From Acidobacterium sp. (lineage in GTDB: Bacteria; Acidobacteriota; Vicinamibacteria; Vicinamibacterales; UBA2999): DNA of 39,239 nucleotides. The translations under genes were made by a program, and so were the position numbers. Shown piece by piece: positions 9,662 to 35,590 of this stretch. The notes below the pieces were generated by a model. That model was not told where the DNA came from. It was given only the letters and a program-made list of their open reading frames with translations, and made no database searches. The DNA is taken from positions 1-39,239 of the forward strand of contig NSIL01000023.1 in NCBI GenBank assembly GCA_002737365.1, written 5' to 3'. Within the stretch, counting starts at the first letter, position 1. The number at the start of each line of letters is the position of its first letter.

Positions 9662-9859
9662 ATGGCCGAAGTGAAATTGCAAGAAGGTGAGTCGATCGAA
9701 AGCGCGTTGCGACGTTTCAAGCGCAAGGTGCAGCAGGAAGATATCATCAAGGACATCAAGAAGCACTCTTTCTACTTGAAGCCGGGAGACAAGCGTCGCG
9801 CGAAGCAGGCGCTCGCCCGGAAGCGCAATCGCAAGAAGGCACGACGCGAGACGGAATAA
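9662..9859 (+). CDS. rpsU: 30S ribosomal protein S21
   Basis: Small basic ribosomal protein of the 30S subunit, needed for efficient initiation on mRNA. The 65 residues contain the family landmarks ESIESALRRFKRKVQQE and KKHSFYLKPGDKRR, followed by a Lys/Arg-rich tail (KQALARKRNRKKARRETE). A strong Shine-Dalgarno (AAGGGGGTGA) precedes the ATG at 9662. In many bacteria rpsU is next to dnaG/rpoD or a GatB/Yqey gene; here it is alone between purD and the STAS gene. It is followed immediately by a heptamer array. Confidence 0.96.
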   Translation: MAEVKLQEGESIESALRRFKRKVQQEDIIKDIKKHSFYLKPGDKRRAKQALARKRNRKKARRETE

Positions 9860-9887
9860 GGCTTAAGGCTTGGGGCTTGGGGCTTGG
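9860..9887. repeat. Heptamer tandem array (GGCTTGG) directly after rpsU stop
   Basis: Four contiguous 7-nt units, GGCTTAA then GGCTTGG three times, beginning at the first base after the rpsU stop codon. Bases after the array, to 9994, hold only a short imperfect hairpin (CCTCA...TGAGG near 9898-9920) and the leader of the STAS gene. Confidence 0.85.
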
Positions 9888-9994
9888 GTTGACCAGGCCT
9901 CAGGACCCAAGTCGTGAGGTTCTGATCTCGTGGTAGCATTCGACAGCTTTTAGGGCGTTTCTAAGAGTTTTACCGACGCAGGGGATCTAAGCGA

Positions 9995-10333
9995 ATGGAA
10001 ATCGTCGAACGCACCGTGAACGATGTGACCGTGCTCGACCTCAAGGGCAAGATGACCCTGGGCGAGGGCGACGAGTTGCTGAAGGACAAGATCAACAGCC
10101 TGCTCGCCGCAGGCAAGAAGAAGTTGTTGCTCAATCTCGAAGGCGTGCCGTACATCGATAGCGCCGGCCTGGGCGAAGTGGTTCGGACCTACACGACGGT
10201 CAGCCGCCAGGGTGGCAGCCTCAAGCTGCTCAACCTGACCAAGCGCATCGAGGATCTCCTTTCGATCACGAAACTGCTGACGGTATTCGACACCTTCGAC
10301 TCGGAGGCGGAAGCCGTCAAGAGCTACAAGTAA
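9995..10333 (+). CDS. STAS-domain anti-sigma factor antagonist
   Basis: A 112-residue single STAS domain of the SpoIIAA/RsbV type, a cytoplasmic switch protein that binds an anti-sigma kinase when unphosphorylated. The phosphorylatable serine lies in YIDSAGLGE (Ser56), the classic position. The central strands VTVLDLKGKM and KKLLLNLEGV are typical. No anti-sigma kinase (RsbW) or PP2C phosphatase is within the window. The gene abuts the next one: the GTG start of the UbiA homologue follows its stop directly, so the two are probably co-transcribed. It may regulate envelope or glycan synthesis post-translationally, which is inference. Confidence 0.92.
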   Translation: MEIVERTVNDVTVLDLKGKMTLGEGDELLKDKINSLLAAGKKKLLLNLEGVPYIDSAGLGEVVRTYTTVSRQGGSLKLLNLTKRIEDLLSITKLLTVFDTFDSEAEAVKSYK

Positions 10334-11230
10334 GTGGCGAGGCGGTCCACGGTCGCGAACCTGATCATTTCGCTGCGACCGGATCAGTGGACCAAGAACC
10401 TGCTGGTCTTTGCGGCGCTGGTTTTTGCTGTCAAATTGCTCGACCCGGCCGCCTTGGCGCATGCTTCGGCGGCCTTTTTGATTTTTTGTGCACTGTCGGG
10501 AGCCGTCTATCTCATCAACGACGTCTCCGATCGGGAGGCTGACGCGCTGCATCCGATCAAGCGGATGCGGCCGATTGCCTCGGGCGCGCTCTCGCCCGTC
10601 GTCGGCCTCAGTTGGGCCATGGCACTGAGTGTGGTCGCGCTGGCGGCAGCCTACTGGCTGCAGCCGCTGTTTGCGGTTTCTGCTTCGGCGTACCTGGCGC
10701 TCTTCGTCTTGTACACGCGGTGGTTGAAGCACATCGTGATCCTCGACGTCATGTCGATCGCGATTGGCTTCGTGCTCCGGGCCGAGGCAGGTGGATTGGT
10801 AATTGGCGTGCCGGTCAGCGACTGGTTGCTGGTCTGCACGCTTCTCGGGGCGTTATTCCTTGGCCTGGCGAAGCGGCGGCATGAAATCACCATGCTGGGC
10901 GACGGGGCGAAGGGACACCGCCGAATCTTGGAGGAGTACGATCCGTACTTGCTCGATCAGATGATCGCCATCGTAGCGGCAGCGACCCTTGTCGTCTACG
11001 TGATCTACTGCGCGAGCCCTGAAACGGCCGAGCGGTTCGGCACCAGGTTATTGGTGCTGACCACGCCGTTCCCGAGTTACGGCATTTTCCGGTACCTGTA
11101 CCTCGTGCATCGCAAGCACGGCGGCGGCAGCCCATCGGACATGCTGTTACGGGACCGCCCGCTGCTCAGTTGCGTGGCGCTGTGGGGCATCGCAGTAATC
11201 CTCATCATCTATCGGCCGTACGCGTCGTAA
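10334..11230 (+). CDS. UbiA-family polyprenyl-phosphate phosphoribosyltransferase-like membrane protein
   Basis: 298-residue integral membrane prenyltransferase-fold protein with about 8-9 hydrophobic helices. The Asp-rich motif LINDVSDREADALHP (about 57-71) followed by KRMRPIASG is typical of UbiA members close to decaprenyl-phosphate 5-phosphoribosyltransferase (Rv3806c-type). LRAEAGG and LFLGLAKRRHE are further landmarks of that subgroup. The reaction would transfer 5-phosphoribose from PRPP to a polyprenyl phosphate, giving a lipid-linked pentose donor. Start is GTG, directly after the STAS stop. Its position ahead of four glycosyltransferases supports a role in making a lipid-linked sugar for a surface glycan. 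A quinone-type UbiA is less likely from the motifs. Confidence 0.83.
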   Translation: MARRSTVANLIISLRPDQWTKNLLVFAALVFAVKLLDPAALAHASAAFLIFCALSGAVYLINDVSDREADALHPIKRMRPIASGALSPVVGLSWAMALSVVALAAAYWLQPLFAVSASAYLALFVLYTRWLKHIVILDVMSIAIGFVLRAEAGGLVIGVPVSDWLLVCTLLGALFLGLAKRRHEITMLGDGAKGHRRILEEYDPYLLDQMIAIVAAATLVVYVIYCASPETAERFGTRLLVLTTPFPSYGIFRYLYLVHRKHGGGSPSDMLLRDRPLLSCVALWGIAVILIIYRPYAS

Positions 11231-11238
11231 ACTGGGAA

Positions 11239-12525
11239 TTGCCGCGTTCAACAGTCGCCATCGTCAAGACCTCGCCGGCTACGGTCCTTCGGGACACGCA
11301 CGCGGTGATGAACCTGGCCGGTTACCAGGACGTCATCGCGAAGGACGCCGACACCGCGCTCAAGGTCAACATCTCGTGGCACTTTTTCTTCCCCGGCTGC
11401 TCGACCACGCCGTGGCAGCTCGACGGCGTGATCCGCGCCATGAAGCAGGACGGCTACGATCCGTCACTGCTCCACGCCTGCCACAACCGCACCGTCGTCA
11501 TTGACGCGCATCTTGGTGAGGAAGCCAACAAGCAACTGCCGGTCGTCCAGGCGCACGGCCTTCGCAACGTGCACCTCTACGAGGGCGACGAGCCGTGGAT
11601 CAGTGTCCGCGATGCCGTCGGCAGCGCGCTAGCCGATAAGTTCCTGTGCCTGAATGAGGTCTATCCCGACGGCTTCATGATCCCGAAGCGCTTCATTGGG
11701 GAGAACATCATCCACCTGCCGACCGTGAAGACGCACGTCTTCACGACCACGACCGGGGCCATGAAGAACGCGTTTGGCGGGTTACTGAACGAGCGCCGCC
11801 ACTGGACGCATCCGGTGATCCACGAAACGCTGGTGGACCTGCTGATGATCCAGAAGAAGATCCACCGCGGCGTGTTCGCGGTGATGGACGGCACCTTTGC
11901 CGGCGACGGTCCCGGACCGCGTTGCATGGTGCCGCACGTCAAGAACGTGATGCTGGCCAGCAGCGACCAGGTGGCGATCGATGCAGTGGCGGCCAAGCTG
12001 ATGGGCATGGATCCCATGTCGATCAAGTACATCCGCATGGCACATGACCTGGGTCTTGGCTGCGGCGATCCGCGCGAGATCGAGATCACCGGCGATCTCG
12101 AAGCGGCCAAGGAGAACTGGCACTTCACCGGCCCGTTCAAGAAGATGACGTTCGCGTCGAAGATGCAGCATTACATCTACTGGGGACCGCTGCGCCGGCC
12201 GATCGAATGGTCGCTAAAGACGGTGTTGGCGCCGTGGGCCTACATCGCGAGTGTGATCTACCACGACAGCTTCTGGTATCCCGTCAACGGCGCGGCACAG
12301 ATGCGCGAGGCGTTGTCGAGCCCATGGGGGCGGCTGTTTGAGAACTGGGAGCAGTTGACACCCGACGCCAATGGCTATCCGCAGGTGGGCGAATCGCCCG
12401 CCGCGATCACGCGTGCCGGCATGCACGCATTCAGACAGTCCATCGGTATTCTCGGCACCTGCATCGCAGAGGCGCCCGAGTTTGCCAGCCGGAAGCGCCG
12501 CCACCAGGCGCAGTCCGGATCCTGA
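11239..12525 (+). CDS. DUF362 domain-containing protein
   Basis: 428 residues from a TTG start at 11239, 8 bp after the previous stop. I chose this start because the family begins with a VAIVKT strand a few residues in, and no ATG or GTG lies closer. DUF362 landmarks include NIIHLPTVKTHVFTTTTGAMKN, GVFAVMDGTFAGDGPGPR and SDQVAIDAVAAKLMGMDP. No ferredoxin-type Cys cluster is present, so this is the version without the 4Fe-4S domain. The family's biochemical role is not established. Here it lies between a polyprenyl-phosphate enzyme and glycosyltransferases, suggesting a role in the same glycan pathway. The C-terminal 100 residues (after about 310) are outside the conserved core. Confidence 0.85.
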   Translation: MPRSTVAIVKTSPATVLRDTHAVMNLAGYQDVIAKDADTALKVNISWHFFFPGCSTTPWQLDGVIRAMKQDGYDPSLLHACHNRTVVIDAHLGEEANKQLPVVQAHGLRNVHLYEGDEPWISVRDAVGSALADKFLCLNEVYPDGFMIPKRFIGENIIHLPTVKTHVFTTTTGAMKNAFGGLLNERRHWTHPVIHETLVDLLMIQKKIHRGVFAVMDGTFAGDGPGPRCMVPHVKNVMLASSDQVAIDAVAAKLMGMDPMSIKYIRMAHDLGLGCGDPREIEITGDLEAAKENWHFTGPFKKMTFASKMQHYIYWGPLRRPIEWSLKTVLAPWAYIASVIYHDSFWYPVNGAAQMREALSSPWGRLFENWEQLTPDANGYPQVGESPAAITRAGMHAFRQSIGILGTCIAEAPEFASRKRRHQAQSGS

Positions 12526-12538
12526 GGATGTTAAGTCG

Positions 12539-13591
12539 ATGAGCGAGTTCACCATTCGTTCCGAGTCGGTCGATGTCGAGCAGATCATGAAACAGATCCG
12601 CGCCCGCATTCTCGAGAAGCGCGGCGTCGACTACACCGAGGATCAGATTCGCGAGCTGGCCAGCGTGCGGCTCGAGAAGTTCCTGGAGCCGCGCAACCTG
12701 CGCTCCGACCTGCTGGAGCAGTTCCGCCGCAGCCGGCCCCGGGTCGAGCGCACACCGCTCGAACCGCCAGTCATCGAGGCTCCGTACGCGTTCGATGACC
12801 AGACCCTGTTCACTTCACATCGGGCGCCGATGCGGTTGCTCCGCCGGCTGTTTCGCCCATTGCTGAAGCTGTTCTTCAATCCCAACACGCTCAACCAGAT
12901 CCTGCATACTCAGGCACAGTTCAACCTCGACCTGATGAAGCGCGACGCGCGACGCCGGATCGAGCACCATGACGAACTTCAGCAGTTCGAGATCTCGCGC
13001 GGCGAGTGGAATGCCCTGTACTACGAAGTGCTGCACAACCTGGTGATCGAGACCACCCGAACCGGCATCGAGATGCAGAACCTGCGCATGCGGGTGGAGT
13101 CACTCTCCAGCCGGCTCGACTTCAGCGAACGCCGGGTGCGCGCGCTCGAGGGCGTCGTGCAGTACCGGCCCGAAGTGATCCACGCCCCCGCCCGCCGCGA
13201 AGCGGATGAGGATGAACCGGCGGCAGTACCGGCGACGACGAGCTCGTTCGAAGGCTTTGTTCCGGTCGGGCAGCCGGCTCAGAACCAGCCGGGCCAGGGA
13301 CAAGGCGATGCCAACCGCAAGCGCCGTCGTCGTCGCCGCGGACGGCGCGGTGGCGCGGGCGCGCCGGGTGCGCCCGGCATCGGCGGCGCGCCGGGCATGG
13401 CCGGTCAACCAGCCGGTCCGCAAGACGGCGACACTTTTGAAGCCGGCGAAGACGGTCCGGATGACGGCGACGACGGCTTCGATGAGCGCGAGCCGCAGTC
13501 GACCGCCGATGCAACCGACGCATCAGCGGCACCGGCGGTACCCGACGGACCGGTGGTACCGGCGTCTTCCGACGACCACGGCGAGCAGTGA
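12539..13591 (+). CDS. Helical, membrane-peripheral protein with Arg-rich and acidic disordered tail (unknown function)
   Basis: 350 residues, ATG at 12539 with GAGGA upstream. Residues 11-62 (VDVEQIMKQIRARILEKRG) and the basic amphipathic stretch around 93-128 (SHRAPMRLLRRLFRPLLK) resemble the N-terminal segment seen on methyltransferases and glycosyltransferases of O-antigen-type clusters; here no catalytic domain follows. Residues 130-207 are probably coiled coil. Residues about 220-350 are low complexity: an Arg run (about 260-270), a Gly/Ala/Pro repeat (GAPGAPG) and an acidic end. It overlaps the next glycosyltransferase by GTGA. It may be a scaffold that recruits the glycosyltransferases to the inner membrane; this is inference. 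No homologue with known function is recognised. Confidence 0.75.
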   Translation: MSEFTIRSESVDVEQIMKQIRARILEKRGVDYTEDQIRELASVRLEKFLEPRNLRSDLLEQFRRSRPRVERTPLEPPVIEAPYAFDDQTLFTSHRAPMRLLRRLFRPLLKLFFNPNTLNQILHTQAQFNLDLMKRDARRRIEHHDELQQFEISRGEWNALYYEVLHNLVIETTRTGIEMQNLRMRVESLSSRLDFSERRVRALEGVVQYRPEVIHAPARREADEDEPAAVPATTSSFEGFVPVGQPAQNQPGQGQGDANRKRRRRRRGRRGGAGAPGAPGIGGAPGMAGQPAGPQDGDTFEAGEDGPDDGDDGFDEREPQSTADATDASAAPAVPDGPVVPASSDDHGEQ

Positions 13592-15234
13592 AGGTCGCGG
13601 TCGTCGTCCAGCGGTACGGTGCTGACATCAACGGCGGTGCCGAGCAGCATGCCCGTTACGTCGCGGAGCACCTGGCCAAGCACGTCCAGGTCGAGGTGCT
13701 CACGACCTGCGCGCATCGCGATTACATCTCGTGGAAGAACGAGCTGCCAGCCGGCCTGGAGGTCGTCAACGGGATTCCTGTCCACCGCTTCCCGGTGGCG
13801 GTCGAGCGCGACCCGATCGAGTTCGCGAAGTGGTCGGCCAAGGTCTTCACGCAGTCGCACTCGCTGCGCGATGAACTGGCGTGGCTAGATGCCGAAGGGC
13901 CTACCAGCCCGGCGCTCGTCGACCACATCAAGGCGCACGAAGCCGACTACGACTTCTTCATCTTCTTCAGCTTCCGCTATCACCACTCGTTCCACGGCTG
14001 CCGCGCGGTGGCGTCGAAGGCCATTCTGGTGCCGACCGCCGAGCGCGACGGCGCGCTGGGCCTCGGTATCTTCCCGCCCGTGTTCCGCGGCATTCGCGCG
14101 GTCATGTACAACTCGTTCGAGGAACGCGCCCTGATCCAGGGCGTGGCCAACAACCAGTCGGTGCCGGGCGTGGTGGTGGGCGTCGGCTCAGAGATTCCCG
14201 AACGGTCCAATGGCGGGCGCTTCCGCCAGAAGTTCGAGATGCGCGACCGCTTCGCGATCTACGTCGGCCGCATCGACGCGAACAAGGGCTGCCTCGAGCT
14301 GTTCGAGTTCTTCGAACACTACAGCGCGTCGCTAGTCGATGGCATGCACCTGGTGTTGGTCGGCACGCCGCACGTGCCAATTCCCAAGCATCCGCGCATT
14401 CATCACCTGGGCTTCCTCGAAGACCAGGACAAGTACGACGCGATGGCCGCCGCCGAACTGCTGATCATGCCGTCGTATCTCGAAAGCCTGTCGATGGTGG
14501 CGCTGGAGGCCTGGGCCATGGGCAAGCCGGTGCTCGCCAACGCCAAGTGCGACGTACTGCAGGGCCAGTGCATCCGCAGCAACGCCGGCTTGTTCTACGA
14601 CAACTTTCACGAGTTCGCCGAGACGTTGCGGGCGATTGACTCCGGTCCCAGCCTGCAGGCGGCCCTCGGCCGCAACGGGCGCGCGTTCTTCGAGCGCAAC
14701 TATGCCTGGCCGGTGATCGAGAAGAAGTACGTCGACATGCTGGAACAGCTGTCGAAGGAGACACCGGCGCGGACGATGGAGCCGATGCCGGGGTGGTTCA
14801 CGCGCCGCCGGCGCTCGCTGCCGTCCGCTGACAGCATCGTGAAGCAGTTGCCGAATGGGCCGTATCGGGAAGGCAGAAATCAGAAGCCGGAAGTCAGGAG
14901 CGAACGGCCCGCCGTCAGCCAGCCACCGGTGCAGAACCGTCCACAGCCACCCGAACGGCCGCAGTTTCAGCCGCGCGATCAGCGTCGCGATCAAAGACGC
15001 GATCACCGCGGTCCGCGACCGGAGGGCCGTCGGCCCGCCGACTCAGCCCAGGGCAGACCCGCGGCGGGACCGCAAAGCCGACCGAAGCAGGACTCGCCGC
15101 GCCCCCAAGGCGAGCCACAAGCACTACGGCCGGAGGGTGGCAACCGTGGCCGAGACAATCGGCGGGGCGGCCGGCCGCAGCGTCGCCGCAGGTCCGGTGG
15201 CGGTGGTAATGGCGGCGGTAGCGGAGCGAAGTAG
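13588..15234 (+). CDS. GT4 glycosyltransferase with long Arg/Gly/Pro-rich C-terminal tail (paralogue A1)
   Basis: GT-B-fold glycosyltransferase of family GT4. Residues 1-390 are the catalytic core: the N-terminal donor/acceptor domain starts VKVAVVVQRYGADINGGAEQ, and the retaining-enzyme EX7E motif is Glu299...Glu307 in YLESLSMVALEAW. Residues about 400-548 are a disordered tail rich in Arg, Gln, Pro and Gly (RDQRRDQRRDHRG, QRRRRSGGGG), absent from its paralogue at 17505. A heptamer array at 14874-14901 lies at the start of the tail and encodes part of it. GTG start overlaps the preceding stop, and the TAG stop shares a base with the next GTG. Sugar specificity is unknown. Confidence 0.88.
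   Translation: MKVAVVVQRYGADINGGAEQHARYVAEHLAKHVQVEVLTTCAHRDYISWKNELPAGLEVVNGIPVHRFPVAVERDPIEFAKWSAKVFTQSHSLRDELAWLDAEGPTSPALVDHIKAHEADYDFFIFFSFRYHHSFHGCRAVASKAILVPTAERDGALGLGIFPPVFRGIRAVMYNSFEERALIQGVANNQSVPGVVVGVGSEIPERSNGGRFRQKFEMRDRFAIYVGRIDANKGCLELFEFFEHYSASLVDGMHLVLVGTPHVPIPKHPRIHHLGFLEDQDKYDAMAAAELLIMPSYLESLSMVALEAWAMGKPVLANAKCDVLQGQCIRSNAGLFYDNFHEFAETLRAIDSGPSLQAALGRNGRAFFERNYAWPVIEKKYVDMLEQLSKETPARTMEPMPGWFTRRRRSLPSADSIVKQLPNGPYREGRNQKPEVRSERPAVSQPPVQNRPQPPERPQFQPRDQRRDQRRDHRGPRPEGRRPADSAQGRPAAGPQSRPKQDSPRPQGEPQALRPEGGNRGRDNRRGGRPQRRRRSGGGGNGGGSGAK
14874..14901. repeat. Degenerate heptamer array in frame in the glycosyltransferase tail
   Basis: Four 7-nt units: CAGAAAT, CAGAAGC, CGGAAGT, CAGGAGC. 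They encode RNQKPEVRSE near residue 430-440, the border between the catalytic domain and the disordered tail. Unit sequence differs from those in purD and eno, but the 7-nt period is the same. Confidence 0.65.
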
Positions 15235-16427
15235 TGGCGATTGCGATCCACCAGGTGCTCGCCACGCTGGGCTACGGAGATGCCATCGGCCACGAAGTGC
15301 TGGGCATTCAGCAGGTGCTGCGCGGGGCTGGCTACGACTCTGAGATCTTCGTGCAGACCGCCGATCCCCGGCTCGAAGACCTGACGCTCGACTACCGCGA
15401 TCTGGCCGACGCCAGCCATCCCGACAACATCCTGATTCACCATTTTTCGATCGGCTCGCGCGCCTCGCGCGTGGCCTACGCGCTGCCGGATCGGATGGCG
15501 CTGGTGTACCACAACATTACGCCGCCGGAGTACTTCGTCGACATCCACAAGGAGCTGGTGCAACTGTGCTTCCGAGGCCGGCGCGAGCTGGCGCTCTATC
15601 GGGACCGCTGCGACCTGGCCCTGGGCGACTCGGAGTACAACCGCCAGGAACTTGAGGCGCTCGGCTTCCACGCCACCGGCGTGCTGCCGGTCGTGCCGGG
15701 GTTCAGTCACTTGAGCGGACCGGCCAATTACATGCAGGCCGGCCAGTACGACGACGGCTGGGTCAACGTCCTGTTCGTCGGGCGAGTGATTCCCAACAAG
15801 AAATTCGAAGACGTGATCCGGTCGTTCCACGCCTACAAGAAGTGGTTCAACCCGCGGTCGCGCCTGCTGCTGGTGGGCGCCCATTCCGGCTTTGAGCGCT
15901 ACCTGACGCTGTTGCACCAGTTCATCGCCGACTGCGGCGTCTCTGACGTCCACTTCGTTGGGCACGTGTCGAACGAAGAGCTGACGGCCTATTACGAACT
16001 GGCGGACGTGTTCCTGTGCGCGAGCGAGCACGAGGGCTTCTGCGTACCGATCATCGAGGCTTTTCACATGGGCGTGCCGGTGCTGGCGTATGCGGCGACC
16101 GCGGTTCCCGCCACCATGGATGGGGCCGGCGTCTTGTACACCGACAAGGATCCCCTCGCGTTGGCGGCACTGATCAATGCCGTCGTCGACGACCGCGATC
16201 TGCAGGAGCGCATTGTCGACGGGCAGGACGCCGCGCTCGATCGCCTCGAAGCCCGGGATTTCGCGGGCACCCTGCTCGCCTTTGTCGATCAGTTGCTGGC
16301 GACGCCACGTCGCCCGCATCCGCCCGTCGCCTTCGATTTCTGGGATCAGATTCAGGTGGCCGAGGAGCTTGAAGCGATCAAGGCGTACCGGCCGTCGGCC
16401 TTCCTGGCGCTGCCGGCCGCACCATGA
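15234..16427 (+). CDS. GT4 glycosyltransferase (paralogue B1)
   Basis: 397-residue GT-B glycosyltransferase. GTG start at 15234 shares one base with the previous stop. The N-terminal domain contains HHFSIGSRASRVAYALP and YHNITPPEYFVDIH, a pattern shared with the next gene. The C-terminal nucleotide-sugar domain has FVGRVIPNKKFEDVI and the EX7E motif Glu267...Glu275 in EHEGFCVPIIEAF, typical of retaining GT4 enzymes. No membrane segment is visible, so it is probably cytoplasmic or peripheral. It is a paralogue of the gene at 16450 (shared GDSEYNR, YHN(I/V)TP, SEHEGFCVP). Donor and acceptor unknown; context suggests a glycan built on a polyprenyl carrier. Confidence 0.9.
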   Translation: MAIAIHQVLATLGYGDAIGHEVLGIQQVLRGAGYDSEIFVQTADPRLEDLTLDYRDLADASHPDNILIHHFSIGSRASRVAYALPDRMALVYHNITPPEYFVDIHKELVQLCFRGRRELALYRDRCDLALGDSEYNRQELEALGFHATGVLPVVPGFSHLSGPANYMQAGQYDDGWVNVLFVGRVIPNKKFEDVIRSFHAYKKWFNPRSRLLLVGAHSGFERYLTLLHQFIADCGVSDVHFVGHVSNEELTAYYELADVFLCASEHEGFCVPIIEAFHMGVPVLAYAATAVPATMDGAGVLYTDKDPLALAALINAVVDDRDLQERIVDGQDAALDRLEARDFAGTLLAFVDQLLATPRRPHPPVAFDFWDQIQVAEELEAIKAYRPSAFLALPAAP

Positions 16428-16449
16428 ACCTGGCGACCTTGGGATTACG

Positions 16450-17508
16450 ATGATCGTGAACCAGTGGGTGCCGGCGGCGCACAAGGGTGACGCAATTGGC
16501 GATTCGGCGCGCCGGGTCAGGACCCTGCTGCGCGAGCTCGGCCACGAGTCGGAGATCTACGCCCTGACGATCGATGACGAACTGCGCGGCGACGTTCGCT
16601 GGTTTGCCGATCCGGCGGCGAAGCGCGGCGACCTGACGATTTTCCACTTTGCGATGGTGTCGCCGTTGACCGCGGAGTTCGCCCGGCTGCCGGGTGGCCG
16701 CATCCTGCAGTACCACAACGTCACGCCGTCGCATTTCTTTGCGGCCTACGACGCCAACATCTTTCGCCTGACCGCGCTCAGCCGCGAAGACCTGAAGACG
16801 CTGGTCGGGCACACCGATGCGGCGCTGGGCGACTCCGAGTACAACCGCCGCGAACTCGAGAGCTACGGCTTCACCAACACCGGCGTGTTCCCGATCGCCA
16901 TCGATACCGAGCGCATCACGGCGGCGCCGCGGCGGCCGGCCTTGGAGGCGGTGCTGCGAACCGACGGTTTTCTCAACTTCCTGTTTGTCGGCCGAATCGC
17001 GCCGAACAAGAAGATCGAGGACCACATCAAGCTGGCGGAGTACTACAAGCGCTACGTCGACGAGTCGTATCGCTTCATCTTCGTCGGTCGCACCGACGCG
17101 GTGCCTCGCTACTTCGACACGATTCAGGCCCTGCTCGCCGAGTACCGCATGCCACCCGGGCGCTTCCTGTTTCCCGGGCCAGTGCCGGACGAAGATCTCG
17201 CGACTTACTACCGCATGTCGAGCGTCTACATTTCGCTGTCCGAGCACGAGGGCTTTTGTGTGCCTCTGCTCGAGGCAATGGCGGCCGATGTGCCAGTGCT
17301 CGCCTACTCATCGACCGCTGTTCCCGACACGCTGGGCGGGGCCGGCGTGCAGTTTGCGCCGAAAGACCTCGAATACGCCGCTGAGCTCCTGGGGGAGCTC
17401 GCTTACAACGACCCGCTCAGAGCCCAGGTGATATCCAGACAGCGCGCCCGCCTCAACGATTTTGGCGACGCCCGGATCCGCCGTGAGCTCGAAAGGCTGA
17501 CATCGTGA
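16450..17508 (+). CDS. GT4 glycosyltransferase (paralogue B2)
   Basis: 352 residues from the ATG at 16450, chosen because family members begin with an INQ/VNQW strand and a preceding stretch has no homology. Landmarks shared with B1 are YHNVTPSHFFAAYD, LGDSEYNRRELE, FVGRIAPNKKIEDHI, and EX7E in EHEGFCVPLLEAM. It is shorter than B1, mainly at the C-terminus. A 22-bp gap separates it from B1, and its stop overlaps the GTG of the next gene (GTGA). Probably catalyses a later or related transfer in the same glycan; specificity cannot be deduced from the sequence. Confidence 0.9.
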   Translation: MIVNQWVPAAHKGDAIGDSARRVRTLLRELGHESEIYALTIDDELRGDVRWFADPAAKRGDLTIFHFAMVSPLTAEFARLPGGRILQYHNVTPSHFFAAYDANIFRLTALSREDLKTLVGHTDAALGDSEYNRRELESYGFTNTGVFPIAIDTERITAAPRRPALEAVLRTDGFLNFLFVGRIAPNKKIEDHIKLAEYYKRYVDESYRFIFVGRTDAVPRYFDTIQALLAEYRMPPGRFLFPGPVPDEDLATYYRMSSVYISLSEHEGFCVPLLEAMAADVPVLAYSSTAVPDTLGGAGVQFAPKDLEYAAELLGELAYNDPLRAQVISRQRARLNDFGDARIRRELERLTS

Positions 17509-18743
17509 AGATTGCATTCATCGTCCAACGCTACGGCGCCGAGATCCTCGGCGGTTCCGAGTATCACTGCCGCCTGATCGCCGAGCGGCTCGCGGCCAAG
17601 CACGAGGTCGAAGTGCTGACCACGTGCGCGCGCGACTACATCACGTGGGAGAACGAGTATCCCGAGGGCCACGACCGCATCCGTGGCGTCACGGTGCGGC
17701 GCTTCAAGAACGCGAAGACCCGAGACATCAACGCCTTTAACCAGTATTCGGACTGGATTTTTCATCACCCGCATACCCGCGACGATGAGATGTCATGGCT
17801 CGAACAGCAGGGGCCGTGGTGCCCGGCGCTGAACGACTACCTGAACAAGCACCATCGGCAGTACGACGCGCTGATCTTCTTCACGTATCTCTACGCCCCC
17901 ACGGTGTTGGGCCTGGCGATCGATCCGGCGCGCAGCATCCTGGTGCCAACGGCGCACGACGAGCCGGCGATTCATCTCGGCATTTACCGCGAGATGTTCG
18001 CCAAGCCGTCGGCGGTCGCCTTCAATACCGAGGTTGAGAAGAACTTTCTCAAGACGACCTTCGAGTTCAGAGCCGCGGCGGAAGAGACCGTGGGTTGTGG
18101 CGTCGACTTGCTGCCGGACCAGGTGCAGCCGGACGAGCCGGAACCGGAAGACGAGGACGAGATTCACAAGCGCCTGCCGCAGCACCTGCGTGCCCGGGGC
18201 GCGCAGTTCCGCCGCCGCCATCGGCTGCAGGGTCAGTTCCTGCTCTACGGCGGCCGCATCGACGCCGGCAAGGGATGCGAGGAGCTGATCGAGTACTTCA
18301 CCAGCTACAAGGAGCTGGGCGGCGAGGCCGCACTCACGCTGATGGGTGTCAAGCTAATGCAGTTGCCTGAGGTGCCATGGGTCCGCTTCGCCGGGCTCCT
18401 CTCCGAACGCGAACGCCTCCAGGCCCTCGAGGCCGCCACCATCGTGGTGGTGCCGTCGCCGCTCGAAAGCTTGTCGTTGCTGGCGCTCGAGGCGATGGCG
18501 GTCGGCACCCCGATCCTGTGCAATGCCCGCTCAGAAGTGCTGGTCGAGCACTGCGTGAACAGCAACGCAGGACTGTTCTACGCCAACCGGGAAGAGTTCC
18601 TGGAGTGCACCAAGCTGCTCCTGGCCGACGAGCGGATGCGCGATCGCATGGGCCGCAATGGCAAGGAATACATCAAGCGCAATTACCGCTGGGACGTGAT
18701 CCTGTCGAAGTATGACCGCCTGATCGGGTCGCTCCGCCGATAG
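17505..18743 (+). CDS. GT4 glycosyltransferase (paralogue A2)
   Basis: 412-residue GT4 enzyme, clear paralogue of the gene at 13588. Shared landmarks are VQRYGAEILGGSEYH, EVLTTCARDYITWENE, YGGRIDAGKGC and PLESLSLLALEAMAVGTP (EX7E). It differs by an acidic insert (PDEPEPEDEDE) between the two Rossmann domains, and it lacks the long Arg-rich tail of A1. GTG start overlaps the B2 stop. The 3' end overlaps the SCO gene on the opposite strand by 61 bp. It is the last gene of the plus-strand glycan run. Confidence 0.9.
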   Translation: MKIAFIVQRYGAEILGGSEYHCRLIAERLAAKHEVEVLTTCARDYITWENEYPEGHDRIRGVTVRRFKNAKTRDINAFNQYSDWIFHHPHTRDDEMSWLEQQGPWCPALNDYLNKHHRQYDALIFFTYLYAPTVLGLAIDPARSILVPTAHDEPAIHLGIYREMFAKPSAVAFNTEVEKNFLKTTFEFRAAAEETVGCGVDLLPDQVQPDEPEPEDEDEIHKRLPQHLRARGAQFRRRHRLQGQFLLYGGRIDAGKGCEELIEYFTSYKELGGEAALTLMGVKLMQLPEVPWVRFAGLLSERERLQALEAATIVVVPSPLESLSLLALEAMAVGTPILCNARSEVLVEHCVNSNAGLFYANREEFLECTKLLLADERMRDRMGRNGKEYIKRNYRWDVILSKYDRLIGSLRR

Positions 18744-20386: not shown

Positions 20387-21850
<1,464 letters not shown>

Positions 21851-21852
21851 GG

Positions 21853-24792
21853 TTAGTGTCCCCTTCGACTCGCACGAGCGGATGGGTCATCCGCTCGTGC
21901 TTGCTCAGGACAAGCTGCGAAGCGAATCTCGAACCGCGTGCCCGTGCCCGGCGTGCTGTCACATTGAATCGTCGCTTCGTGCTCGCGAACAATGCCGTAG
22001 GTGATCGACAAACCGAGCCCGGTGCCCTGGCCAATGGCTTTAGTCGTGAAGAACGGATCGTAGATTCGTGCCAGGTGCTCGGCGGCGATGCCGTTGCCGG
22101 TGTCCGAGACCTCGGCCACCATCTCGCGACCGTCGGCGCGGGTCGAAATGGTCAGCCAGCCACCGCTCGCCATGGCATCGCGGGCGTTGAGGAACAGGTT
22201 GAGGAACACCTGTTGCAGCTTGAACTCGAAGCCGATCACGCGGACCGGCTCGGCCTGCAACTCGCGGCGCACCTTGACGCTGCCCTTGTCGAACTGGTGC
22301 TCAAGCAGCGACAGCACATCGGCAATGACCACATTCAGATCGACGACCGTGCGCTCGGATTGTTCCGCAGCATTGGGCCGCGACAGGTTGAGCAGGCCAT
22401 TGACGATGCGGGCGGCGCGGAAGGTTTGCTTTTCGATTTTCTCGAGCACCTGTGTCCGCGGGTCGGCCTGGTCGGCGTTCTCGAGCAGCATCTGCGTGTA
22501 GCTGGAAATCCCGGTGAGCGGCGTGTTCACTTCGTGCGCCACGCCGGCCGCCAACAGGCCAAGCGAGGCCATCTTCTCCGAGATGCGCAACTGCTCTTCC
22601 AGCTGCGAACGCTCGGTGATGTCCTCGAAGATGACAATCGTGCCGGCCTGCGAGCCACCGGCCAGCGTCTGCAACGGCACCGTCGTGACGTTGACCAGCA
22701 GGCGCGCACCCACGACGCCATCGCCCTGCTCGCCATCGCGGCTCGGTCTGCGCGCCATCAGCGGCACCCGGAAGATCGTGGTGCCATCCGGATGATCGCG
22801 GCGAGCCGCGCTCAGCAACTCGACCAGATGCGCGTCGAACAACTGGTCGACGTGCTGGCCGAGCACAGCCGAACGCTGCGGGCCATAGACGCGTTCGAGT
22901 GCGGCATTCCAACGAACCACGTGGTCGGTTGGTCCCAGCACCAGCAAGCCATCGTCCAGCGACTCGAGAATGTTCTCGTTGAAGGCGTGCAGGCGATCCA
23001 GTTCGGACGCCTTGAGGTGCAACTGCCGGTACAGGCGGCCATTTTCGATCGCCGTGGCCGCTTGTGCCGCTACGGCCGTGACGAGCGCAGTGTCTTCGCT
23101 GCTCAGCGGTTCGCCGCTGGCGCGGCGGCCGAGGCCGAGGATGGCAATCGCCGCGTCTTTGGTCACGCACGGCACGAAGTAGAAAATCCCCGCGTCGCGC
23201 CAGAACTCGACCTCTTCAGCGGAGAACCGTGTCGCCGCCAGCGGATCATCGAGCCGCACGGTGTGGGCGCTGTTGATGCGCGTGCCGACGCCAGAGGCGC
23301 TGACCAGGCGCGGTGGCGCGGCGTCAAAGCCCGCGTGACTGATCACGTCGAAGTCGCCGGCCTCGTTGGCCAGGAAGAACGCCATGCGATCCAGCTCGAT
23401 GGTCTCGCGCACGCGCGTGACCAGGCGATCGGCTAGGCGATTGAGGTCGAGGTCGCTGTTCAACTCGCCGGCAAAGCCGACCAGCGCGCGGCGGTAGTCG
23501 TAGCGATCGCGGTAAAAGGCACGGTCAATGGCTTTCTGCAGGCCGTCCTTCACCGGTTTGGCGAGCAGGATGACGACCACAGTCGCCAGGAACGCGATCA
23601 TCCAGCGGTGTTGCGACTCGCCGGCGAGCATTTCGTTGCCTGACGCGCGGAGGATCAGCACGTAGAGGGCGACAATCGCCGCAACCGCGGAGGTGTAGAC
23701 CAGCAGGCGCTTGAGGATGATTTCCACATCCATGAGCCGATAGCGAATGATGGCTGACGCAAACGCGAGCGGAATGAAGCCCAACGGGATGGCAGTGAGC
23801 TCCATCGGGATCGACGAGTCGGCACCGAGCACAAACGGAATGGCGTAGCCGAGCGCGAACGGAATGGTGCCGAGGGCCGTACCCCACACGATCCAGCGCA
23901 GTTGGCGCTTGACGGTCACCGACCGGGCCCGCCCCAGCGCACGCCGCAGCACCGCCAGGCCGGCCGCGCCGAAAGCGACCAGGTAAACATATTCAAGACG
24001 GTCGAGCAGCGACACGACGCGGATGAAATACTCGGGATCGACGCTCGAGCGCAGCACCGCCAGGGTGCGGGTGGAACCGAGCACCGCGCCAGGCAGGTAG
24101 ATCGCCGGCAACCAGCGCGCCAGTACCGCGGAATAACCCGGTATGTGCGGCCGCTCGGGGAACACCAGCGTGAAGTGCAGGAAAAGCGCCGGCAGCACGC
24201 TCAACGCAATCACATCGCCCCAGTAGAACACCCAGTCAACCCGATCGAGACGACCGCTGAACGAGAAGGTGAACACGCCGAAGAACGCCACCGACAACCA
24301 GAAGAAGTGCAGGGTGGCCTGATCGGTGGGACGCCGCGCCCGGACCGCCGCGCCGACGAGCAACGTGAAGATGCCGACCGCGGCCAGCACGTAATAGAAC
24401 AGGCCCGTGCCGCTCGGCATCGGCGCAAGCGAGACCGTCGCGATTTGCTGAGTGCCCAGCCTGAGCAGGGTGTAGGAGTGGCGGTCACCGGGCTTGGTCT
24501 GGTGCTGTAGATTCAGCACGTCCTGGCGGCCATCCACCGGCTGGTTGTTGATGCCGATCAGCACATCGCCGGGTCGTACACCGGCGCGGCTGGCCGCCGA
24601 CGGCGAGGCCACTTCGGCGGCGACGACGCCGACGGCGCGCTCAACCCACAGCACGCCATCTTCAACTTCAGTGTGGGTCGCGCGGGAAATCACGTTGGCC
24701 AGCCCGAGCGCCAGCAGGCCGAGCGTCACCGCCACCGGCAAGGCTGTTTGCCGCCATTCGCACCACCAGGTTACCGGTCCAGGCACGGACAT
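21853..24792 (-). CDS. PDZ / multi-TM / GAF / PAS sensor histidine kinase
   Basis: About 979 residues from the ATG at 24792; a TTG 30 nt upstream is possible but less likely. Domains in order: first TM (about 18-36), periplasmic PDZ domain (about 55-115, AASRAGVRPGDVLIGINNQPV), about seven further hydrophobic segments (132-410), GAF (about 445-600), PAS (about 610-735, DGLLVLGPTDHVVRWN), HisKA with His753 in GVAHEVNTPLTG, and HATPase_c (NLFLNARDAM, DTGNGI, GTGLGLSITYG). PDZ in a kinase sensor suggests binding of exposed peptide ends in the periplasm, for instance misfolded envelope proteins; that is inference. Forms a tight operon with the NtrC-type regulator, to which it should transfer phosphate. 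Confidence 0.92.
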   Translation of the reverse strand: MSVPGPVTWWCEWRQTALPVAVTLGLLALGLANVISRATHTEVEDGVLWVERAVGVVAAEVASPSAASRAGVRPGDVLIGINNQPVDGRQDVLNLQHQTKPGDRHSYTLLRLGTQQIATVSLAPMPSGTGLFYYVLAAVGIFTLLVGAAVRARRPTDQATLHFFWLSVAFFGVFTFSFSGRLDRVDWVFYWGDVIALSVLPALFLHFTLVFPERPHIPGYSAVLARWLPAIYLPGAVLGSTRTLAVLRSSVDPEYFIRVVSLLDRLEYVYLVAFGAAGLAVLRRALGRARSVTVKRQLRWIVWGTALGTIPFALGYAIPFVLGADSSIPMELTAIPLGFIPLAFASAIIRYRLMDVEIILKRLLVYTSAVAAIVALYVLILRASGNEMLAGESQHRWMIAFLATVVVILLAKPVKDGLQKAIDRAFYRDRYDYRRALVGFAGELNSDLDLNRLADRLVTRVRETIELDRMAFFLANEAGDFDVISHAGFDAAPPRLVSASGVGTRINSAHTVRLDDPLAATRFSAEEVEFWRDAGIFYFVPCVTKDAAIAILGLGRRASGEPLSSEDTALVTAVAAQAATAIENGRLYRQLHLKASELDRLHAFNENILESLDDGLLVLGPTDHVVRWNAALERVYGPQRSAVLGQHVDQLFDAHLVELLSAARRDHPDGTTIFRVPLMARRPSRDGEQGDGVVGARLLVNVTTVPLQTLAGGSQAGTIVIFEDITERSQLEEQLRISEKMASLGLLAAGVAHEVNTPLTGISSYTQMLLENADQADPRTQVLEKIEKQTFRAARIVNGLLNLSRPNAAEQSERTVVDLNVVIADVLSLLEHQFDKGSVKVRRELQAEPVRVIGFEFKLQQVFLNLFLNARDAMASGGWLTISTRADGREMVAEVSDTGNGIAAEHLARIYDPFFTTKAIGQGTGLGLSITYGIVREHEATIQCDSTPGTGTRFEIRFAACPEQARADDPSARASRRGH

Positions 24793-25018
24793 AGCCGTCG
24801 TTGGTTCAGTGTTACCTAACAAGGCAGATCAATCCGGTGATTCCAGAGCAAATCCCATACCACGAGCTCAACCTTGAGTGGCTTGCTAACTCATTGATAG
24901 ATATGATCTTACACCCAAATGACGCCTTTGACACACCGCTTTATCCAAACAGCCGTCGAATCGATCCAAAACTTAGTATGCGCAAAATTGGGCGGGAAAG
25001 GGTCAGGGCCCGAGGCCC
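24793..25018 (+). pseudogene. Lower-GC remnant, possibly C-terminal fragment of a regulator
   Basis: This 226-bp stretch between the kinase and the receptor gene is much richer in A+T than its surroundings. On the plus strand it is open from about 24801 and encodes IPEQIPYHELNLEWLANSL and, further on, TPLYPNSRRIDPKLSMRK. The pattern of helix, loop and closing strand ending LSMRK loosely resembles the C-terminus of LacI/GalR-type regulators. There is no plausible start or upstream domain. It may be the scar of a horizontally acquired gene. The identification is weak and rests on eye comparison only. Confidence 0.3.
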
Positions 25019-33743: not shown

Positions 33744-34712
33744 GTGAAGCAGGTTCCTTTACTCTCGGTCGAGAACCTCACGACGGTGTTCGACGTCAAG
33801 CCGCGGCCCGTGGTGGCCGTGAACGACGTGTCGTTCGAAATCCGCAAGGGTGAAACCCTCGGATTGGTTGGGGAGTCGGGAAGCGGCAAGTCGGTTACCG
33901 CCTTCTCAATCATCGGACTGCTGCAGCCGCCCGGCCGCGTTGCCGGTGGGCGCGTGATCTTCCAGGGCCGCGATCTGGCGAAGCTGCCCGAGCCGGAGAT
34001 GCGTACGGTGCGCGGCGCCGGCATTGGCTTCGTGTTCCAGGAACCCATGGCGGCGCTGAACCCGGTCATGCGGGTCGGCGCGCACATCGCTGAGGCGCTG
34101 ATCGTGCACGGCATGGCGTCAAAGACCGCAGCCCGCGCCAAGGCGATCGAGTTGCTGCGAGCCGTCAAGATCACCGACCCCGAGAAGCGCGTGGACGATT
34201 ATCCTCACCAGCTTTCGGGCGGCATGCGCCAGCGCGTGATGATGGCGGTGGCGTTGGCCTGCAAGCCGCCGCTGCTGATCGCCGACGAACCCACGACCGC
34301 GCTCGACGTGACCGTCCAGGCGCAAGTCCTCGAGCTGCTGCGCGACATGAAGCAGCAGTTCGACTTGTCGCTGCTGCTCATCACTCACGACCTGGGCGTG
34401 ATCGCGGAAACCGCGGACCGCGTCGCGGTGATGTACGCCGGACGCATTGTCGAGCAAGGCACGGTGCGCGAGATTTTTTACCAACCGAAGCATCCATACA
34501 CGCGAGGCCTGCTGGCGTCGATCCCCGGCGGCGACGCCGGCTCGCGCCTGCGGGCCATCGACGGCACGGTGCCCAACCTGGCCTCGCTGCCACCGGGCTG
34601 TTGGTTTGCGCCGCGCTGCCGCGATCGCATGCCGGTTTGCGACATCGCCTTCCCGCCGGTGACAGGCGCGGATCACTCAGTACGGTGCTACCTGCATGGA
34701 GGCCAGCCGTGA
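33744..34712 (+). CDS. Oligopeptide/dipeptide ABC transporter ATP-binding protein (OppD/DppD type)
   Basis: 322-residue ATPase for peptide or nickel import. Walker A GESGSGKS (43-50), signature LSGGM (157-161), Walker [13 protein letters not shown] (about 177-188) and the Cys-bearing C-terminal oligo_HPY region ([14 protein letters not shown]) are all present. GTG start at 33744, chosen because the family begins at the LLSVENL strand. It overlaps the second ATPase by GTGA. No permease or substrate-binding gene is in the adjacent genes, so the membrane partners are elsewhere or missing. Upstream neighbour is the mutase, 18 bp away, probably co-transcribed. Confidence 0.92.
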
Positions 34713-35590
34713 CGCCGCTCGTCGAGGTCAAGAACCTCGTCAAGCACTTCGAACGCGGCGGCGGCTTGTTCCGCGCCAAGACGGTCGTCAAGGCCGTCGA
34801 CGATGTGAGCTTCGTGGTGAATGAGGGTGAGACGTTTGCGCTGGTCGGCGAATCGGGCAGCGGCAAGAGCACGACCGGCCGTTGCATGCTCAGGCTGATC
34901 GAGCCCACGTCAGGCGAGGTGCTGTTCCGCGGCAAGCACGTGCTGGGCTACTCGAGCGCAGAGATGCGGGCGGCCCGGCGCGACATGCAGATGGTGTTCC
35001 AGGATCCGTTCTCGTCGCTCAATCCCCGCATGCGCGCGTTCACCATTGTCGAAGAACCACTGGTCATTCATTCGATTGGGTCGAAAGCCGACCGACGCGC
35101 GCGCGTCGCGGATCTGTTCAAGCTGGTCGGCCTTGACCCCGCACACCTCGAGCGTTATCCCCACGAGTTCAGCGGCGGGCAGCGTCAGCGCATTGGCCTG
35201 GCGCGCGCGCTCGCGCTGAACCCCTCGTTCATCATCGCCGACGAGCCGGTCTCGGCACTCGACCTCTCGATCCAGGCGCAGGTGATCAACCTGCTGATGG
35301 ACCTGCAGGAACAGCTCAAGCTGACCTACTTGTTCATTGCCCATGACCTTCGCCTGGTGCGGCACATTTCGACGCGCGTGGCGGTCATGTATCTGGGCCG
35401 CATCGTCGAAATGGGCGGCACTCCAGGGATTTTCGCGAACCCGCAGCATGCCTACACCAAGGCGCTGCTCTCGGCTGTTCCGGCGACCAATCCCGACGTG
35501 CCCCGCGCCCGGATCGAACTGGATCCCACGCTGGTGTCGCACGGCGCGCCGCTCCGGCAGATCTCCGAAGGGCACTTCGCCGCGGTGTAG
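34709..35590 (+). CDS. Oligopeptide/dipeptide ABC transporter ATP-binding protein (OppF/DppF type)
   Basis: 293-residue partner ATPase. GTG start at 34709 overlaps the OppD-type stop and has GGAGG 7 nt upstream. Walker A GESGSGKS (47-54), Q-loop [11 protein letters not shown], signature FSGGQRQR (154-161) and Walker [12 protein letters not shown] are typical. The C-terminus ends without the Cys-rich CxFxxRC segment often seen in OppF, so the oligo_HPY tail is shortened ([11 protein letters not shown]). Together with the preceding gene it forms the heterodimeric ATPase of an importer whose permeases are not in this window. Convergent with the LolD-type gene, 6 bp away. Confidence 0.92.

Follow-up and report, generated by a model that had tools for sequence, protein, structure and literature searches.

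The window analysed here is a stretch of 39,239 nucleotides from Acidobacterium sp. (Acidobacteriota, Vicinamibacterales; contig NSIL01000023.1 of assembly GCA_002737365.1, 3.05 Mb, hereafter genome G000 with the window contig G000:C16), in which a close run of genes encodes a UbiA-fold protein, a protein of the DUF362 family, a helical scaffold-like protein (the product of the 'coil gene') and four GT4-family glycosyltransferases. We find that this DUF362 protein, which does not belong to the known LarA family, is probably a nickel-pincer protein, and that it is a later insert in an old glycan module, whose UbiA member is by family a predicted polyprenyl-phosphate phosphoribosyltransferase (PPPRS). 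Computation established the gene order, the family of UbiA, the LarA-like predicted fold of DUF362 together with its motif, and the co-occurrence of DUF362 with LarC, which (like LarB) takes part in making nickel-pincer nucleotide (NPN).

The DUF362 protein, the start of which (TTG at 11239) was inferred by comparison with homologues, matches PF04015 at 72.3 bits (Pfam gathering cut-off 24), and among the NCBIfam models it touches only NF052623 (Npun_F2552 family; 42 bits versus a cut-off of 500). DUF362 and DUF2088 (LarA) share one Pfam clan (PMC11770544), and in that paper DUF362 serves only as a same-clan outgroup. An AlphaFold (AF2) model of the protein (mean predicted local distance difference test, pLDDT, 77.9; predicted template-modelling score 0.84) retrieved with VIA-align five top entries that all belong to the LarA superfamily, the match lying mainly in the N-domain (6d6z: Z 12.4, root-mean-square deviation 3.8, 221 aligned; 7s91: Z 11.7; 9eia: 11.6; 9eid: 11.5; 9q3j: 11.2), and the next entry followed at Z 5.2. 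At the profile level, hhalign of 40 diverse DUF362 sequences (12 of the window type, 8 of ~46-50% identity and a further 20, drawn from 14 genomes) with 11 LarA sequences from relatives (profile A3; a twelfth fetched sequence, L171, carries an in-frame stop and was excluded) gave P 2.8e-6 (probability 88, 187 columns), and the 20 other DUF362 alone gave 6.4e-7; in the controls, the best of 60 column-shuffled LarA profiles reached 0.048, the reversed profile 0.12 and a coil profile 0.65. This alignment sets H166, K176 and H191 of DUF362 (kept in 39, 40 and 37 of the 40 diverse sequences, respectively) on H163, K173 and H189 of A3 (spaced by 10 residues from H163 to K173 and by 16 from K173 to H189), which are equivalent to the catalytic His174, the cofactor lysine (which we take to be Lys184) and the nickel-binding His200 of L. 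plantarum LarA. His174 and His200 of that enzyme, 26 residues apart, are named in PMC12611868 and PMC11851776. A further histidine, H82, is invariant in window-type DUF362, is kept in 12 of the 40 diverse sequences and is not placed by hhalign on LarA His108 (the second catalytic His). In one outlier (L202) an Asn lies close to where the catalytic His would be expected, in a part of the alignment that is uncertain; a LarA subfamily with Asn in that position is described in PMC12611868. Taken together, these comparisons point to a predicted LarA fold in which the three nickel-pincer site residues are kept, so that DUF362 is no longer the biochemical blank that the original prediction had taken it for.

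Several results of the same comparisons weigh against this assignment. Foldseek alone found no entry at E <0.001 for the model (PDB and viral structures), and the motif loop (residues 172-192) is its least confident part (pLDDT <50). Furthermore, hhalign gave 0.08 for the window type alone, 0.58 for the second DUF362 type alone and 0.37 for both together, while the narrow DUF362 profile A1 by itself produced neither an alignment with LarA nor a credible match among solved structures (one at E 0.65), and the protein matched neither PF09861 nor any LarA NCBIfam model at E 0.001. Moreover, the substrate-binding C-domain of LarA lies mostly outside the match, and thus the substrate of DUF362 need not be a 2-hydroxy acid; the C-terminus of DUF362 itself is long and helical (helix 321-360, in which the best 19-residue stretch averages 1.1 on the Kyte-Doolittle scale).

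The second line of evidence comes from the distribution of the genes for LarB and LarC, LarA being marked by PF09861. According to PMC11796402, ~15% of the genomes examined there (many cyanobacteria among them) have larB, larE and larC without larA, and some other protein likely uses the cofactor in such larA-less genomes. G000 encodes LarB, matched at 290 bits, and LarC, matched at 204 bits with both of its domains; it has a single PF04015 match, the DUF362 of the run, and a whole-genome search found no LarA; since this only DUF362 has the LarA site residues, the question of the missing cofactor user becomes testable here. Among 60 genomes (G000 and 59 relatives) LarC exceeded its cut-off in 53, LarB in 55 and LarA in 17, and LarA was absent (PF09861 search) from all nine genomes of the genus of the window. 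Across a sample of 149 Acidobacteriota (in which an A1 match >350 bits counted as 'with DUF362', and 25 genomes with weaker DUF362 matches were counted as 'without') LarC is present in 43 of the 44 genomes with the window kind of DUF362 versus 62/105 without it (Fisher 3e-7, kinship ignored), the sole LarC-less carrier (G071) being 75% complete; by family, for the 125 genomes with a family listed, the counts are 24/25 versus 26/34. LarC was likewise found in 46 of 50 genomes that carry DUF362 and whose titles give another phylum or no phylum (drawn from 52 named loci with no acidobacterial group in the title, and leaving L018 uncounted), a figure that has no matched background. Two of the 14 control genomes, those of S. 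elongatus and H. volcanii, combine LarC with PF04015 and have no LarA.

Here too there are observations on the opposite side. LarC is common anyway, as its frequency in Acidobacteriota lacking the window kind of DUF362 testifies, and within the 60 genomes the link is weak (41/44 versus 11/15, Fisher 0.06; G026, with a fragment, excluded). Among the controls, LarC occurs with no match to PF04015 or LarA in C. glutamicum and M. jannaschii, and PF04015 with no LarC match in Bacteroides ihuae; three relatives (G009, G031 and G042) have DUF362 and LarB with no LarC match, and two others (G017 and G040) have LarB and LarC with no match to LarA or DUF362, which may point to yet another protein that uses NPN or to a gap in the assembly. 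In the loci searched no lar gene lies beside DUF362 except larB in G052, so the neighbourhood gives little support. The arrangement in G052 (L105:9197-11224) is a DUF362 gene divergent from larB at ~0.1 kb, upstream of a gene that looks, by eye, like mutS2.

Some of these gaps could also be read to mean that DUF362 has the fold and motif of LarA without NPN, its pocket being used for chemistry with a different metal, nucleotide or phosphate (such as that of the 5-phosphatase missing from the run). NPN use is indeed a prediction, LarC goes unmatched in B. ihuae and in 5 of the 25 Acidobacteriota whose DUF362 matches are all weak, and a Pfam scan found no phosphatase gene within the run; we nevertheless regard this alternative as improbable in view of the near-universal presence of LarC in genomes with window-kind DUF362 and of the three retained site residues, and operon genomes with no DUF362 in the operon would need a phosphatase all the same. 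Weighing both sides, we hold that DUF362 probably binds NPN, an assignment for which the open-access literature (searched for DUF362, PF04015, Npun_F2552 and nickel-pincer) yielded no precedent.

With regard to UbiA, the phosphoribosyltransferase-like character put forward in the original prediction is borne out. The protein exceeds the cut-offs of NF008977 (297.1 bits, cut-off 234) and NF008978 (215 bits, cut-off 207), scores <45 bits with each of the quinone, heme and chlorophyll models of NCBIfam, and found as solved relatives only 8j8j (131 bits) and 8j8k, the mycobacterial enzyme, in which NDVRDVEAD (8j8j) aligns with its own NDVSDREAD (N62-D70). Residues equivalent to this Asp motif were mutated in Citrobacter ORF15 and shown to be needed (PMC11127046). 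In a 26-row tree UbiA groups with the mycobacterial enzyme and not with the quinone or heme prenyltransferases that the original prediction had named as the grouping to its disadvantage, and ten other UbiA proteins of the order lie beyond a 100/99 branch; among these (8/10 scanned) four are heme o synthases above cut-off, two pass a UbiA-like polyprenyltransferase model with quinone models as best match, and two are nearest to chlorophyll-type models. Two proteins (L213 and L214) initially labelled as 'other' UbiA fall on the PPPRS side of the tree and match the PPPRS models. A quinone or heme function was thus rejected on the family cut-offs, the tree and the model scans of other UbiA proteins. 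By family, then, UbiA is a predicted PPPRS akin to the mycobacterial phosphoribosyl-lipid synthase, and NF008977 is matched above its cut-off in 54/60 genomes.

The run itself was confirmed: all seven genes named in the original prediction are present on the plus strand, with overlaps or gaps of at most 22 bases, inside a close run (9662-18743) that truly starts upstream of UbiA with rpsU and a STAS gene, and the same order in many related genomes places it beyond chance. We read 20 stretches around UbiA in relatives, chosen mostly where DUF362 is not beside it: 17 have no DUF362 after UbiA (two of them, L114 and L120, reach the contig edge before the glycosyltransferase genes), two have DUF362 in the slot, and one concerns a second, unrelated UbiA. 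The coil gene was identified in only part of the 17, its presence in G041, G043, G045, G052 and G055 being by profile search. In the phylum sample the coil profile matched all 12 genomes of the order and 19/137 others, and of 14 further stretches six, all outside the class, keep the order coil-GT1-GT2-GT3-GT4 (UbiA adjoining the coil gene in two), none of the 14 having a match to window-type DUF362. Neighbourhoods were clustered by blastp with a composition filter, since antisense open reading frames are long in these GC-rich genomes; the filter misses some coil genes, in whose place the antisense cluster c18 stands. The core that recurs across the order thus consists of STAS, UbiA, the coiled-coil protein and four GT4 enzymes, and because its order is found without DUF362, including outside the class, the glycan module is old and DUF362 was inserted later, between UbiA and the coil gene. 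A fixed place for DUF362 in the core was accordingly rejected: of the UbiA-DUF362-GT order, whose conservation across Acidobacteriota the original prediction had suggested checking, the locus stood (it is not confined to this genome) and the fixed place of DUF362 did not. In most of the relatives examined around UbiA the gene before it encodes a STAS protein (68-100% identical), a strong conservation that suggests partner-switch control of the glycan genes. A locus with the record title Acidimicrobiia (L018, a title that is probably wrong) contains the first part of the operon, with STAS, UbiA, DUF362 and coil genes 78-96% identical to those of the window.

A protein search found DUF362 in 49 of the 60 genomes, 44 of them with full-length copies of two types: that of the window (76-100% identical, 27 genomes including its own) and a second one (45-50%, 17 genomes). 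The two types are deeply split from each other and share one position, flanked by UbiA and the coil gene; in 34 of the 44 genomes DUF362 adjoins UbiA (coordinates compared by eye). A scan of named genomes returned 270 relatives, the best 80 of which (74-95% identical) were taken as loci, their record titles naming Acidobacteria, Planctomycetota, Chloroflexi, Latescibacterota, Verrucomicrobia and others. UbiA occurs in 21 of these best 80 loci, two of which, L066 (titled Latescibacterota) and L044 (titled with no phylum, its DUF362 grouping near Latescibacterota), have a UbiA of the same family as neighbour of DUF362. Weighing against a role bound to the glycan, the other 59 loci carry DUF362 at 74-81% identity with no UbiA match as far as they are sequenced around it (40 span >2 kb on both sides, 19 <2 kb on one side or other); such solitary copies in other phyla imply that the substrate may be another one and the job perhaps not tied to this glycan. 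Mapped on a DUF362 tree of 45 selected rows, adjacency to UbiA requires five changes, and well-supported branches force three or more of them. Eight neighbours outside the operon (an Fe-alcohol dehydrogenase, an FtsH-type protease, a kinase, a radical SAM protein, DUF1571, a P-domain protein and two with no family) give no common functional pointer. In five loci titled Latescibacterota (L064, L065, L067, L070 and L077) DUF362 is flanked by an esterase-like protein (c19; PF22244 in L064) and an unassigned protein of ~345 aa (c17), and in L071 by c19 only.

Another reading of this distribution is that DUF362 is an NPN enzyme acting on some small molecule in general metabolism and lies among the glycan genes only so as to be expressed together with them. 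The abundance of solitary copies in several phyla with varying neighbours, the existence of the core operon without DUF362 and the extension of the LarC link to other phyla all speak for such a role; two deeply split types in one slot, and the recurrence of UbiA-DUF362 neighbours in L044 and L066, speak against it, and we judge it doubtful, with a chance that is nonetheless appreciable. Far less probable, in our estimate, is an ordinary locus of lipopolysaccharide or O-antigen type in which DUF362 is incidental and UbiA simply feeds ribose. The common kinds of GT4 enzymes, the conservation of the core without DUF362 and the Citrobacter precedent would suit it, yet it leaves unexplained both the sharing of one slot by two DUF362 types and the extreme conservation of DUF362 (mean column identity 78% over 52 window-type sequences).

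Taking DUF362 as an NPN protein, we propose that an old acidobacterial glycan operon (STAS, PPPRS-type UbiA, scaffold and four GT4) gained DUF362 in part of the Vicinamibacterales (the order as given by record titles). UbiA would, as its family suggests, convert phosphoribosyl pyrophosphate to polyprenyl-phosphate-ribose 5-phosphate at the inner membrane, and an unlinked phosphatase would then remove the 5-phosphate. DUF362, having bound NPN, would abstract the hydride of a hydroxyl-bearing carbon and deliver it back to the opposite face, and the holo-protein (perhaps at the membrane via helix 321-360, which is a guess given its modest hydrophobicity) would in this way invert a pentose hydroxyl on the UbiA lipid, turning ribose into an arabinose or xylose type, a task that falls to DprE1/DprE2 in mycobacteria and to an optional epimerase in Citrobacter. 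The scaffold protein, with its long helix and disordered tail, may gather the GT4 enzymes, which would build the oligosaccharide. The steps of this proposal differ in strength: isomerase chemistry by DUF362 we consider evenly balanced; that it uses NPN within this glycan pathway, irrespective of the lipid or sugar acted upon, is a tentative claim falling somewhat short of that balance; and the pentose on the UbiA lipid, although the likeliest single candidate for its substrate, is doubtful. The widest version, in which DUF362 is a second NPN-enzyme family apart from LarA that explains much of the LarA-less cofactor makers, and the operon copy a single-protein polyprenyl-phosphate-pentose epimerase replacing DprE1/DprE2, seems to us unlikely as a whole. 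Its predicted fold and site residues make DUF362 a candidate user of NPN in genomes that produce the cofactor with no known use for it. If true, the proposal would give this widespread family its first biochemical role; if the substrate guess holds as well, it would add a new route to arabinose- or xylose-type lipid donors.

The helical protein matched no family in the Pfam/NCBIfam scan. Its parts are a VDVEQIM-x-QIR module, a long helix and an Arg/Gly-rich disordered tail (alignment A2 and an AF2 model that is weak overall, with a helix at 115-206 and a tail mostly at pLDDT <50). A search with its N-half gave a single match per genome in 13 genomes, with no second protein carrying the module seen in these 13. 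Long Arg/Gly-rich and probably disordered tails end both this protein and GT1, perhaps as a shared tether. GT4 domains were detected in all four glycosyltransferases (Pfam/NCBIfam), and the Pfam scan of the run found no flippase, polymerase or export genes inside it, in agreement with the original prediction, which as a whole is partly supported, its underlying observation being confirmed. A scan of some of the other reading frames of the window recovered two oligopeptide-type ABC ATPases (33744-35590), 15 kb off and unlinked to the run. Downstream of the run lie a SCO1-type gene and a histidine kinase, as well as a sigma-54 response regulator together with its PDZ-GAF-PAS kinase (20387-24822). 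Clusters c13 and c12, of like place and size to this last pair, lie 3' of the operon in many relatives (one c13 member scanned). The features are listed below.

Features of the gene run and its surroundings in the 39,239-nucleotide window
Feature	Coordinates	Strand	Basis and remarks
purD, upstream of run		opposite	sequence reading by eye
rpsU (ribosomal protein S21)	9662..9859	+	PF01165, 70.9 bits; directly upstream of operon
STAS-domain protein, anti-anti-sigma type	9995..10333	+	PF01740, TIGR00377 above cut-off; first gene of operon
UbiA-fold protein, predicted polyprenyl-phosphate phosphoribosyltransferase (PPPRS/DPPRS family)	10334..11230	+	PF01040; NF008977; 8j8j; tree
UbiA Asp motif N62-D-x-x-D66-x-x-x-D70 (NDVSDREAD)	10517..10543	+	sequence reading, 8j8j alignment
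DUF362 protein, 428 aa, LarA-like predicted fold	11239..12525	+	PF04015; AF2 model; hhalign to LarA
DUF362 putative site codons H166 (11734-11736), K176 (11764-11766), H191 (11809-11811)	within 11734..11811	+	hhalign to LarA
Helical scaffold-like protein (coil gene)	12539..13591	+	alignment A2, AF2 model; no Pfam family
GT1, GT4-family glycosyltransferase, Arg/Gly-rich tail	13588..15234	+	PF00534, PF13692
GT2, GT4-family glycosyltransferase	15234..16427	+	PF00534
GT3, GT4-family glycosyltransferase, GT2 paralogue	16450..17508	+	PF00534; start set by homologues
GT4, GT4-family glycosyltransferase, GT1 paralogue	17505..18743	+	PF00534; shares blastp cluster with GT1

A pathway similar to the Citrobacter system described next exists in Azorhizobium. 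The closest published comparison is provided by the three-component pentofuranose systems of Citrobacter youngae O1/O2 (polyprenyl phosphoribose synthase, MATE flippase and GT-C enzyme), in which the presence or absence of an optional short-chain dehydrogenase/reductase (SDR) epimerase gene decides between xylose and ribose (PMC11127046). As that study also cites Pseudomonas for pentose lipid donor chemistry, a pentose donor outside mycobacteria, advanced in the original prediction as a novelty, had already been published. The likeness lies in a PPPRS-type UbiA feeding lipid-linked ribose, in adjoining glycan genes and in an optional extra gene. The differences are that the run has no fused phosphatase domain, MATE flippase or GT-C gene, so that of the three components only the PPPRS is found in it (the rest of the genome was not searched for the flippase and GT-C), that the optional gene is DUF362 and not an SDR, and that four GT4 enzymes and a helical protein stand instead.

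The mycobacterial DPPRS-DprE1/DprE2 arabinose pathway (Rv3806c, 8j8j) shares with the window the UbiA family and its Asp motif, and differs in that the run holds no arabinosyltransferase and the genome no ALO-type DprE1. The original prediction had suggested looking for DprE1/DprE2 elsewhere in the genome; because a search for PF04030, the ALO domain that marks DprE1, gave no match for G000 or for 54 of the other 59 genomes (DprE2 was not sought), arabinose by this known route is unlikely, and the absent marker together with an optional DUF362 beside UbiA fits the pentose-epimerase proposal. Among other DUF362 proteins, the Npun_F2552 family (NF052623) is the only named NCBIfam family within reach, and the protein of the window differs from it by its far lower score and its 428 aa with a long helical C-terminus. 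Finally, compared with the LarA superfamily (DUF2088, NPN-dependent racemases and epimerases), DUF362 differs in a C-terminal part that is mostly unmatched and in being missed by PF09861, and resembles it in the predicted N-domain fold, in the His-x9-Lys motif with a later His, and in the presence of LarB and LarC in the genome.

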